From positions 26,789,749-26,853,748 of the forward strand of contig NC_133237.1 of NCBI RefSeq assembly GCF_040436345.1: 64,000 nucleotides of DNA, written 5' to 3'. The DNA is from Pagrus major (Eukaryota > Chordata > Actinopteri > Spariformes > Sparidae). Below, piece after piece: positions 38,101 through 44,100 of the stretch. The notes under the pieces were generated by a model. It had not been told where the DNA came from. It saw only the letters and a program-made list of their open reading frames with translations, and ran no database searches. Made by a program: the position numbers and the translations under genes. The first letter of the stretch is position 1. Every line of letters starts with the position of its first letter.

Positions 38101-41100
38101 TTCCTGCAGCCTTCAGTGACGCTCACCTTCCCAGCGTAGTGCAGAACACTGAACATCAGTTTGTCTTTGTGCTGTTTGGGTTTGGAGAACTTGGTGTGAC
38201 CGGTGTGTGTGTTCAGCAGTTTGTCCACGAAGGAAACATCAGTGGCTTTGGGGAACCAGCACTCCTCGTCCAGCAGGGCCAGGATGCCTGGAGGGTTGTT
38301 CTGCAGGACAGTGAAGAACAAGAGAATATCTTTTATCTACGGTTTCCTCGTTTAATTTTTTGGATACGGGGACTGTTCAGGTGTCGGTTTCATGAATATC
38401 ATAGCGAAAGCGAGGTTTATAGTGAACGTGCAGCCCGTCCTCACCGGTCTCTCGATGAGCTCGATGCAGGGCAGCAGGTCGAGGCCGAAGTCGATGAAGT
38501 TCCACTCGATGCCCTCTCTCTTGTACTCCTCCTGCTCCAGGATGAACATGGTGTGGTTGAAGAGCTGCTGCAGACGCTCGTTTGTGTAGTTGATGCAGAG
38601 CTGCTCGAAGGAGTTGTCCTGAGGCGGAGAAACGTCGCAGCGATCGAGTCAGCGATTAGAAAACAGAAACATACAACTGAGTATTTACATGTTTGTTTTC
38701 AGTGAGCGTTCACCTCAAAGATCTCAAAGCCAGCGATGTCCAGGATGCCCAGGAAGGAGGACGACTGCCTCTTACTCTTATCCAGCGTCTTGTTGACTCT
38801 GGCCAGGATCCAACGAAACAGCCGCTCGTACATCGCCTTAGCCAGAGCCTCCACCGCAAAATCAGCCTGGAGGAGGCGCAGGAGAAAGTTTTTGTTAGGA
38901 TTCATTTCAGGGTGACTTTATAGCTCTCTGTTGCTGCAACAGAAGGGTTAATCAGGTGAAACAGAGCTGCCCACTTGTACTTTTCATGAGTATCTATTTT
39001 CTGATATTCTTCTAACTTTCCTCAACTACACTTCAGAGGGAAATGTTCCCCAAGAGCCTTTATTTGCTGTCTTCATGAGCTGTGGTTTGCTGTTACCTGC
39101 TGCTTGGTCTGCGCCTTCTGCACCACCTCCCTGCCCACTTTGATCCTGGGGGTGAGGATGGCGCGGGTGAAGTCGGTGACATTGATGCCTTGCAGGTGAC
39201 ACACCTTCTGGGCAGCTGGAGTTGATGGGGGACAAGAGACAGAGAACCCGTCAGGGAGGTTCAGATTTTAACTTACAGTGGTGCTGTTGGTGTTTTAAAA
39301 TGGTTACCGGTGTTGTCGGGCATGGTCGCCTGCTCGCTGTTCCTCTCCTTCTCAAACTTGATGTTGCCCAGCTGGAGCACAGTGGACACCACCTTAAACA
39401 TCCCTGCAGCAACGAAGACAATCAAGATGGTGCATTAAAGTACAATTTTCAGATGTTACAGATGTCTGAAAGACTTTTTCAAGTAATTAAATGGTAATTT
39501 AAAACACTGAAAGTGGTTAAATTACACATAGCAGCCTGTTAAGATGAAGATAGTTGGAGCAGTTGGTACCTATTCTCTCTTCCTCAGTGAAGCCCATGAT
39601 CTCCATGGCCTCCAGAGTCTCATCAAACATGATGTCATCCTCCTGACCGGGGATCTCCACGTGTCCCGCGATCAGGAAACGATAGCAGCCGAAATCCTCC
39701 AGCAGGAGCTCCTCTACACACAGACAACATCAGTATCAGTTTCATCTTCGACAGAGATATCAGGACGTGTTTAACCGAGCTCATCAGAAAGACTGGAATC
39801 AGGAGAAATGACAGCCAAGCGGTCCTAATCCTCTTCTGTAGTGTTTGTGTGGTTTTTTTCTCTAACAAACATATTTGAGTCCATGTACACAGACATCCAC
39901 TGTAGAATAAACAGAACCATGCCAGTTTTTCACTACATATATCTGCACCTATAAATTTTTTAGCAACATGTATTTGTTTCTTTTTTGATTGAGCTAATCT
40001 GAAAGTTTCCACCTGCCAACACCCGGCTACACACACTCAAGACCCGATCTGTGCACTAGATGTTCAAATACAAAACTCTTGGGGATGACAGCCAACGAGG
40101 TAAAGACTTTTTGAGCCCAGTAAATCTTGGATAAGAGGTGTGTTTATGTTTTTCTTCTTGCTCACCTCTCATCTTGTCTTTGGCTCCTGCCACCATGTAA
40201 TAGAAGATGTGAAAGGCTCTCTCTGTGTTGGCCTGACGAATACAGCGGGACTTCTCCAGGAGGTCTGATTGGGTCAGGAGAGGGTTAAGCAGATAACCAC
40301 ATCTGTTTTCAGTTAATATTTCATTCCCATTTAATTTGTTCATAATTTAATGAACAAATTTCATCTAGAAAAAAAGGATACAGGTGTCAATATTCGCTCC
40401 GACAATGTATCCGGTCACATCAAAGTTGAGCTTGATGAACTTGCCCTGAAGAAAGAGGAGACAGCTACATGAATCCACTGAGACAAAAGTTCAAAATAGT
40501 TTTACTAAACTGATTAAAAACGTACAAATCGTGAGGAGTTGTCGTTCTTGATGGTTTTGGCGTTTCCAAATGCCTCCAGGATGGGATTAGCCTGCAGCAG
40601 CTGCTTCTCTAGCTCCCCCTACAGCCCATAACAAGGTCACACATCACTACTCCATATATTCAGTGTATTCAACAAAACCTGAAGTATGAGATTTTATACT
40701 CACGTAGGCCAGAGATCCCGCCTGCTGCTGCTGTTGCTAGAAGAAGCAGGAAAACAAACTGGTTAGAAGGTCAACGAACCCTCAACTCTTTCCGTCTTCG
40801 TTGAGAAGACGCTGCTTTTAGCATTTCCCCAAAATTGGCCTCCCGCATGACAGCTTGAGATGCAGCAGAGCGGCAGGGCCAGAGGTCAAGCGTCAATAAA
40901 TCTTGGCTAAACAAACCACAGATAGCTCTTCGTTGGATTAAAAGCAGCTGAGCGAACAGCGGCTGTAACTTCTAATCACATTATGGAGGATTTGTGGGAA
41001 AGATATGAAGACCTGGCACGATGATGATGATCTCCTCTAAGTATAGAGCCTCTCCATTAATAGCACCTGTTTAACTGATGCTGCTTAAAATCTTCAGTCA

Positions 41101-44100
41101 GCGTTGTGAGAAAAGTAAGAAGCCCCAGCAGCAACAATAATATCTGTCCTTACCTTAGCCACAGCGGCAGCCACTGAATCCTGTCATGTACAGTGGAATT
41201 AATGTAATTTAATATTTTGTGATAAAACTAAACACTAAAAGATCAACTAAAACATTGGATATCATCACGTTTCACATTTCAAACTGTACACATTGTCCAA
41301 ACATAATAATAATCAATAGTTTTCTTCATTTTTATGATTTTTTATGAATTATTTTCCTAGTTGGATAAGTTCTACGCTTTAATATGATGATAACCAAACT
41401 TTTAGTGGTTAAGTTTCCTAATATCTAGAGCAGCTTTAAGCTAACATTAAAAAACATTGATAAACTAAATAAATTATCATCGAGCTGACCAGAACTTCCA
41501 GTAAAATGGTTGCAAGTGCGTTGAAATTAACCCTGAACCACATTTTTATTCCATATTTGTTAGTTTCGTTAGTGTGATTGAGCGAGTACTCGACTGAAAC
41601 GAGTATCCAGTACAGATAAAGTACTTTTTTTTAAAAGCCTAATTTTAAATATGAGTGTCAGCTGACTAAAATGTGTCAATATCAATATTGTAATGTAAAA
41701 CAATTAATATTATAATTAACTTCTAGTTGCAATTCGTTTTGTCATATTGTCATATATAATATTTATTTGGCTGTGATGTAGATCCAGTTTACAAGAGACA
41801 TGTTTCTACTCACAGGATTCACGTCCTTCTTTCCTTTGTGTGAGGAGGCGACGACGGCCAGGTACTGAATCACCTTCTTGGTGTTTTCCGTCTTTCCTGC
41901 TCCAGACTCACCTCTGTGTGACAGAGCAGATATCTGAACATGTATCAGTAAACACACTCGCACTGTGGGGACAAAGTGTAAAGCCCCCACAATGCACATC
42001 ATTCAGTTTGAGGGTTAAAACTTGGTTTATGGTTAAGAAGTCTCCAGGGAGTGAATGTAGGTCAATCCATGTGTGTGTGTGTTTGCTCACATGCAGGGTA
42101 CAGTGTGATGGAAAAAGGTTAAGTCTTGTATGTTTTGACTCACGTGCAGAGAATAGACTGATCCTCACGGTCTGTGGAGAGAGAGCGAGATGTTAAAAAA
42201 GGGGATATAATGTGAGATGTCGACCGAGCTGAACTCGTTAGTTGAAGCCAAGCTGAACCGACCAAACATGAACTCCGCTCGGACACGAAAGCAAAATGGC
42301 TTCGAAAATCTCGTTCAGAGGGAGATTAGCCTCCATCACTCATATCGTCTAAAAATAGCAGGTGGATGCAGGACTCCATCGCTGTAATCTTGTCTCCCTG
42401 CTCCATGTATGGCCATTCCTGAGCTGAGTGGAAAGTATGGAGTTGGTCTGAGGTCACCGGTGGACCATCCGGAGACGAGACGGCACGCTCTGAGGCTTCA
42501 GCCAGGGGCTGCCACCGTCTGACTGTTATCTAATCACTTTCATTTCATAATTGTACATGTGTGTGTGTTTGCTGTTTCATTAAGTACTGAATAAAGCTAA
42601 TTTACCACTGTTCCTTATATGAAACACAACAGGGCTTTCACATATTTTGCTTTGGAGGTTAATTGTGCAATAAATCAGCAGCGCTCTCCAGAACTGTACA
42701 GTAGTAACAGTAGCAGTAGTTGTAAATCATTGGATACAAGATAAATATATAATTCACGGGAGTGTATAAGTTAATACTTGTTTTCCGGCTTCTCTGTGCC
42801 GTCTTTTGAGAATGTCATTATTGAGTTTTGGTGTACAGGTTCACTGTTTAATCTATTTTCATTTTGTTGTTCTTGACTTGTTTATTAAAGCTTTTCTTTT
42901 ACTGTTTGTTTTCTTTTGTTTCTACAAGTTCGAAATAGAAATATATAAACAATATATCTAAAAATGAAAAAGAATGAAAACATGAAACTAATTAAAAGCC
43001 AATAATTGCAGCATTGCACTTCGTGTAAAATAGCTACTTGCCGATTTTAGACCAGAGAAAACGTTGCTAGCATCCTCGCAAGGTGAGTGACGTGACTTTA
43101 TGTGTGACTGAGTAAAGCTTCCTCCTCCCCCCGTGCTGATGGAGCAGAATGCTGCAACTCTGTTTTGCTGTGAAACTTCACCTGACTTTCCATCAGGTTT
43201 CTTATTTTTGGGAGAACTTTTCCTTTAATTACATGAAGTTAACAACTGCCTAGGATTACCAAAATGTTAACAATAAAACTCAAATTAGCTGACGCCTAAT
43301 TAGGTTCAACTTGCGTCATTGAGAGTGAGGGTTAACCCTTTGTCTAATTTGTGCTCCAGCTCTTTGGCTCTGCATCTGCAATCATTTTGGTGACAGTCTC
43401 GAGTCCACAGAACAACACTTCCTTAAAGGCAAGAGAAAATATGTTCCTCTGTAATTTAGGTGAACTGACCCTTTAAGGTCTGAGTTAGCAGCTGGGAATG
43501 CTTTATGTATTACGGTAAAGATTCCACTGCAAGAATGTATAAAAATATTTGTTTTTTCTCAAAACTTGGTGTATTAATAACCCTTTAGACCTCAACAGCA
43601 CCTTCCACAGAAACACACACACACACACACACACAGCCGGACCTTGCATCATGTTCCTGTAGGCGTTGTCTGTGATGGAGTAGATGTGTGGCGGCACCTC
43701 GTGGCGTTTCTTGCCCTTATACATCTCGATGATCTTTTCGGAGTAGATGGGCAGCATCTTGTAGGGATTCACCACCACGCAGAACAGACCCGAGTACGTC
43801 TGTGGAGACAGGAAACATCATCGTCACCATCATCATCATCACTTTACATAATGACATCAGAGCAGTTAGGCAACTTCACAGTGATCTTTTTAGCTGTTTT
43901 TGAGTACTAACAGCATTTAGTATTTTATTGCATAATTGCACAATGGAGGTAAACAGTAGTAGCAAGACAGTGCGTCACATTTATTGCCTGTGAGCTTTTG
44001 TTTTGCTATTCAATTTGTTTGTTTTTATCCGAAAAAACAAGCACGGACCAACTAGTAATGAAAGAAAGACACAGACGACTGTTACGTGCCAGATAAATGT

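Follow-up and report, generated by a model that had tools for sequence, protein, structure and literature searches.

How many lengths of motor loop can a single fish smooth-muscle myosin gene encode, and with which exons? Loop 1 of the myosin motor is thought to set the speed at which nucleotide is released, and splicing is a route by which one gene can yield both fast and slow smooth muscle. The question is raised here by a stretch of 64,000 nucleotides (nt) of the Pagrus major genome (assembly GCF_040436345.1, contig NC_133237.1), which was analysed as a whole and is called the window below (C23:26789749-26853748 in the genome searched, which comprises 785.9 Mb in 25 contigs). Its minus strand carries a complete gene for the smooth-muscle myosin heavy chain, myh11 (27244-46492). 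The original prediction for this locus placed two in-frame microexons, one of them new, in the intron that interrupts loop 1. The evidence points strongly to one of these, of 33 nt (ME2), as the fish version of a known vertebrate exon, and leaves the other, of 27 nt (ME1), as a doubtful candidate.

Both stretches lie in a phase-0 intron of 1195 nt (40619-41813; all features of this gene are on the minus strand). The intron is preceded by constitutive exon 5, which carries the P-loop and ends in KKDVNP before a gtgagt donor (CCT|gtgagt; 41814-41913), and followed by constitutive exon 6, which begins with GELEKQLLQ (40526-40618). ME1 (41154-41180) stands in the context acatgacag|GATTCAGTGGCTGCCGCTGTGGCTAAG|gtaagg and would encode DSVAAAVAK, and ME2 (40704-40736) stands in the context cttcttctag|CAACAGCAGCAGCAGGCGGGATCTCTGGCCTAC|gtgagt and would encode 11 residues. 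As first described, each is open, in phase 0, a multiple of three in length and flanked by splice signals, and the junction coordinates are correct on the minus strand. Specifically, stop-free AG..GT stretches of 9-60 nt with a length divisible by three were collected from the intron and scored with approximate splice-site matrices. Among the 34 candidates ME1 ranked first (16.1 bits combined; acceptor 4.7, donor AAG|gtaagg 11.4, the top donor of the intron) and ME2 second (16.0 combined; acceptor 10.3, donor TAC|gtgagt 5.7). All of these site scores fall inside the range of the constitutive junctions of the gene (39 of 40 scored; donors -0.7 to 11.6, acceptors 2.8 to 14.9), a comparison that is flattered by the partial selection of those joins with the same score. 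When the intron was shuffled, at least one candidate scoring 16 or more appeared in 29 of 2000 cases, and two such candidates using separate donors in 3 of the 2000. Six candidates of this grade (with five donors, two sharing one) occur on the plus strand of the window, and nine on the minus strand, a figure that includes ME1, ME2 and fragments of genuine exons; at the plus-strand rate, about 0.11 would be expected in an intron of about 1.2 kb. The pair is unlikely to have arisen by chance, and ME1 alone is unremarkable once ME2 is accepted.

The surroundings of ME2 include TTCTAAC (40762-40768), recognized by eye as resembling the branch-point consensus, with its branch A 27 nt upstream of the exon and a pyrimidine tract after it. 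Exon 6 starts 85 nt past ME2 and has a weak acceptor (4.6 bits), as it does in the second myh11 gene described below (3.7), in contrast to 9.4 to 14.0 in five myh9, myh10 and myh14-like genes. The short distance between ME2 and this weak acceptor would favour a regulated choice between the two. RBFOX sites (GCATG, TGCATG or GCACG) are absent from the sense strand between exon 5 and exon 6, and motifs resembling PTB or MBNL sites, like CAC motifs, are so frequent that they carry no information. In horse cells, knock-down of SRSF6 is reported to reduce the SMB form (PMC6198134).

The identity of ME2 was judged by comparing paralogues within this one genome, which for ME2 means a single myh11 paralogue. 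This locus (L012, on contig C1) is a second myh11, as Myosin-11 chains alone match it at the cut-off used. Its loop-1 intron of 2217 nt contains TAG|CAACAATCAGGAGCACAGTTTGCCTAC|GTGAGTA, with the peptide QQSGAQFAY. The two exons both begin at TAG|CAACA, and across the last bases of the exon and the donor they agree in 13 nt (GCCTACGTGAGTA); the DNA comparison recovers only this 13-nt end (E 0.11 on its own), and the in-frame pattern AG|CAACA..TAC|GTGAGT was seen in 0 of 2000 shuffles. The SM-B insert of MYH11 (exon 5b) reads QGPSFAY in human and QGPSFSY in chicken, and ME2 occupies the same place in the same gene, before GELEKQ, with both peptides ending in (F/L)(A/S)Y. None of 280 other same-length peptides from AG..GT stretches of the window was as similar to QGPSFAY as ME2, and none of 351 as similar as the L012 exon; for QGPSFSY the corresponding counts were 2 of 280 and 0 of 351. 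There are differences too, in that ME2 has 11 residues versus 7 and a glutamine run coded by CAA and CAG with tandem acceptors. In view of the sister-gene counterpart, the shared exon ends and the resemblance to QGPSFAY, ME2 is very probably a cassette microexon orthologous to the tetrapod MYH11 SM-B exon, and part of a wider set of loop-1 microexons; its inclusion by splicing is predicted from the sequence. Of the two proposed microexons, this one has therefore gained support, but as the fish SM-B exon rather than as a novelty. Because SM1A and SM1B cDNAs are described from zebrafish gut (PMC4892660), an SM-B form was already known from fish; among the loop-1 insert peptides, a text search of the open literature found QGPSFAY only, in two papers.

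That neither stretch should enter mature mRNA, with ME2 a decayed SM-B relic, is very improbable. The reverse-transcription PCR reported for medaka at 2 days post fertilization, in which myh11a was the only myh11 expressed (PMC13035062), would fit such a relic, but ME2 retains an open frame, a strong acceptor, a branch-point-like site and a donor, and the sister gene retains such an exon as well.

If ME2 is indeed the SM-B exon, its skipping would join KKDVNP to GELEKQ and give the SM-A form, and its inclusion would insert as many as 11 residues, the last of them SLAY, ahead of GELE in the flexible loop that adjoins the nucleotide pocket. If the SM-B forms of chicken and rabbit are a guide, the longer loop would then bring faster product release and shortening. 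According to the review PMC13102872, lengthening loop 1 speeds up ADP release, and SM-B is the dominant form in phasic muscle; in chicken and rabbit, adding or removing the 7 residues is reported to shift the ATPase about twofold (PMC3938199). For ME2, a kinetic effect is suggested by these parallels.

The start of ME2 adds another level of possible variation. Its CAG run (40721-40736) offers in-frame alternative exon starts at 40730, 40727, 40724 and 40721, which would leave 9, 8, 7 and 6 residues (acceptor scores 7.6, 4.1, 1.7 and 1.4, respectively); the form starting at 40724 would be QAGSLAY, of the same length as mammalian SM-B. The way NAGNAG acceptors are known to work suggests that these tandem CAG acceptors may be used, and the run would then allow loop length to change one residue at a time. 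Since the start TAG|CAACA is common to ME2 and the L012 exon, the acceptor at 40736 appears to be old and the glutamine run to have grown inside the exon. The four loop-1 forms proposed earlier (0, 9, 11 or 20 extra residues) are possible in frame, but the count presumes that ME1 is used and overlooks the tandem acceptors.

Is the SM-B exon confined to myh11, or is it one of a family? Genome searches returned 73 and 33 matches, mostly to striated-type myosins, and loci with 90% or more identity to the query in exon 5 were kept (7 of 33 in the second search), namely the window and six others. Apart from the second myh11, two of these (L015 and L017) are myh9, with Myosin-9 chains alone matching at the cut-off, and two (L013 and L014) are myh10, scoring 129.2 bits against Myosin-10 versus 114.4 against MYH14, with exons 5 and 6 encoding an identical peptide. 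The same exons of L016 score 103.6 against MYH10 versus 101.7 against MYH14, and this locus is referred to as myh14-like, a provisional name reached by elimination. Further candidate microexons, each followed by GTGAGT, were found in myh10 (L013; SGALFY, 18 nt) and in both myh9 loci (NSSILSH in L015 and GIAVLSH in L017, 21 nt each). The myh9 pair can be aligned over 24 nt at 92% identity (E 0.001), across the exon end and donor, and the combined scores of the two exons (18.8 and 21.1) were equalled in 11 and 2 of 500 shuffles, respectively. A motif shared by these exons, AG|..[LFVMI]x[YH]|GTGAGT with a length of 12-48 nt and an acceptor score of at least 4, is present in 6 of the 7 loop-1 introns (19.4 kb), i.e. 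those of the two myh11 genes, L013, L015, L017 and L016 (as a 12-nt stretch encoding SMQY). It is found in none of the seven introns when reverse-complemented, and has no other hit on either strand of the window (128 kb); in shuffles it arises 0 to 5 times per 1000 in the six introns and in 3 of 400 in L014. Both myh9 exons end in TGTCACAT|gtgagt, have strong acceptors, and lie 690 nt (L015, reverse strand) and 437 nt (L017) into their introns.

The simplest account of the loop-1 microexons of myh9, myh10, myh11 and perhaps myh14 would be the inheritance of one ancestral exon. More specifically, an ancestral microexon ending in [LFVMI]x[YH]|GTGAGT may have existed before the MYH9/10/11/14 split and may still be used in all four gene families in fish, with mammalian MYH9 having lost it, and ME1 and the CAG run having been added in this gene; this fuller scenario is put forward tentatively, its chances being rather below even.

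A number of points weigh against these interpretations. Human SM-A and SM-B are described as alike in assays (PMC3938199); the graded motor kinetics proposed for this gene are backed by chicken and rabbit myosin but not by the human one. The splice score of the L012 exon is plain (11.0, equalled in 396 of 500 shuffles). The shared motif was written after all six cases were known, so that the chance figures given above are flattering, and both its minimum length and the M among its allowed letters were fitted to the SMQY of L016, which is not an independent case; the fairer contrast is between 6 of 7 introns and none elsewhere in the 128 kb of window strands. The loop-1 intron of the myh10 copy L014 is without such an exon. 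At the peptide level, NSSILSH and GIAVLSH are no closer than chance to QGPSFAY or QGPSFSY (163 to 352 of 352 null peptides score at least as high), and SGALFY of myh10 is only somewhat like them (7 and 10 of 395). As the myh9 and myh10 peptides resemble SM-B weakly, common descent is argued from place, ending and donor.

Small cassettes are also found in the homologous intron of MYH10, where the 16-residue insert combines a 30-nt exon, N30, with a second exon of 18 nt, R18. The loop-1 inserts B1a and B1b of MYH10 (non-muscle myosin, NM IIB) are given as 10 or 16 residues (PMC10480317), and N30 is placed between exons 5 and 6 (PMC4557629). With inserts of two lengths in MYH10, a two-insert layout in one gene is not unique. 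In P. major the first myh10 microexon is kept in both L013 (PESPKPVKLQ) and L014 (PESPKAFKLQ), with 80.6% identity over 67 nt (E 2.6e-12), and the second is present in L013; ME2 matches this second one (SGALFY) in place and ending. The first myh10 microexon has a GC donor (CAG|gcaagt) and lies 365 nt (L013) and 815 nt (L014) into the loop-1 intron. For MYH14 (NM IIC), the C1 insert of 8 residues is a loop-1 cassette at the homologous place (PMC10480317), whereas the myh14-like fish locus has just the 12-nt SMQY and an unrelated 48-nt candidate. The latter (MDGSRSLTRGSSLANR), 1141 nt into the intron, is the best candidate of that intron by splice score (19.5, equalled in 4 of 500 shuffles).

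In mouse tissues, loop-1 splicing of MYH9 was not detected, the authors allowing for rare use (PMC10480317). For this reason the candidate exons of fish myh9 are the least expected finding, and, if genuine, would represent the loop-1 splice form that was sought without success in mouse tissues. Should every smooth and non-muscle myosin II gene of fish turn out to have a loop-1 microexon, splice-based tuning of the motor would go back further and be more widespread than mammals suggest. A collection of viral contigs contained no relative. Three loci of one pond bin titled as a bacterial metagenome-assembled genome (L001-L003) presumably reflect eukaryotic contamination and were not used.

ME1 is a different matter. 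On its splice signals it can be regarded as a possible, if questionable, second cassette upstream of ME2. Were both used, there would be at least four loop-1 lengths, as in MYH10 with its 10- and 16-residue inserts, and this arrangement is judged less likely than not. ME1 is top-ranked in its intron, its donor (11.4) outscores all but one of 39 constitutive donors, its acceptor (4.7) is on a par with that of constitutive exon 6 (4.6), paired candidates arise in just 3 of 2000 shuffles, and fish myh10 (L013) has two tandem microexons in the homologous intron. Among 751 null stretches, 20 have a codon score as high as that of ME1, but this says little, as the sister-gene microexon candidates range from -1.51 to 0.06 versus 0.67 for ME1, and because of their low scores the codon-use test was set aside.

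The comparisons with other genes tell against the use of ME1. DNA comparison found no counterpart in the sister myh11, although the same comparisons do recover the first myh10 microexon (E 2.6e-12), the end of ME2 and the myh9 pair. At the peptide level, the best scores of ME1 in the six other introns were 9 to 15 versus 39 for itself, where the controls reached 40 (first myh10 exon), 23 (ME2) and 18 (myh9 exon), and a cross-family control, the second myh10 exon in L012, reached 19. In this search, 8 of 467 candidates exceeded the 99% null score, with about 5 expected. The shortest control stands only narrowly above its runner-up (14), and a strongly diverged ME1 could therefore escape. ME1 is also unlike the first myh10 microexons of the two copies (equalled by all 351 null peptides in one case and by 255 in the other): it holds the place of N30, but without sequence similarity to the fish PESPKPVKLQ, and with a GT donor where the first fish myh10 microexon has GC. 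In the light of these comparisons, the claim that the 27-nt stretch is a new microexon could not be confirmed.

The missing counterparts in the paralogue introns, by both DNA and peptide, are what would be expected if ME1 were a chance open stretch with good-looking signals and ME2 the only exon, and this is the somewhat more probable explanation. The tract before ME1 is weak (57% pyrimidine over 30 nt), candidates of its grade occur about 0.1 times per kb across the window (the rate behind the figure of 0.11 given above), and the loop-1 intron of myh10 L013 contains an unsupported 15-nt candidate scoring as high as 17.9. Chance would nevertheless have had to place the best-ranked candidate in a short intron. 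A derivation from a common repeat was considered and rejected, since the 201-nt surroundings of ME1 match only themselves genome-wide, in a search that skips simple repeats and scores best candidates only.

The assignment of the gene to myh11 and its location, as originally given, proved right. Its 41 coding exons (46492-27244) are intact and, with ME1 and ME2 skipped, join into a single reading frame of 2001 codons and a stop, the joins having been picked by splice score and frame. A 176-residue motor piece without insert has Myosin-11 as its top match in PDB (304.8 bits; u151482), ahead of MYH9 (281.5), MYH10 (280.5) and MYH14 (254), and the rod end likewise scores higher against Myosin-11 (472.7 bits) than against MYH9 (451.5) or MYH10 (450.3). 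NDE1-like exons, identified by eye, lie tail to tail with myh11 on the plus strand at about 19-23 kb, one of them with a NUDE_C match (E 4.4e-17); human MYH11 and NDE1 are arranged in the same way. Two myh11 genes are described in teleosts, on LG1 and LG8 in medaka (PMC13035062) and on chromosomes 5 and 13 in rockfish (PMC8228858). The copies of myh9, myh10 and myh11 found here are paired across contigs C1 and C23, which is consistent with the teleost myh11 duplication. The window copy is probably myh11b.

Elsewhere in the gene, the last exon (27472-27244) encodes a 75-residue tail rich in serine and glycine, whose best PDB match, a Myosin-11, covers about the first 20 residues only. Between 28332 and 27473 no 15-89 nt candidate for an SM2-like tail exon has both site scores at 3 or more. 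The loop-2 intron (37215-37121) is just 95 nt long, too small for a B2-like loop-2 cassette.

Outside myh11, an open frame upstream of the gene (50952-51440, plus strand) has a Pfam match to a HOATZ-like, cilia-associated protein (E 3.2e-34). On the same strand, 9555-12510 probably holds exons of an Mpv17-family gene, with an Mpv17_PMP22 match at 12253-12510 (E 4.5e-7); the part at 9555-9986 is Mpv17-like by eye only, without a Pfam match. Two sets of dispersed repeats, each with 86-93% identity, occur within the window, one at 13303-13389, 13658-13744 and 57501-57587, the other at 57343-57448 and 62510-62615. Finally, one further match from the genome searches (L004, G000:C22:30827914-30828165) is to a myosin motor and falls in an open frame that runs for 1936 codons without interruption, so that this locus may be a retrocopy or a myosin heavy chain gene lacking introns.

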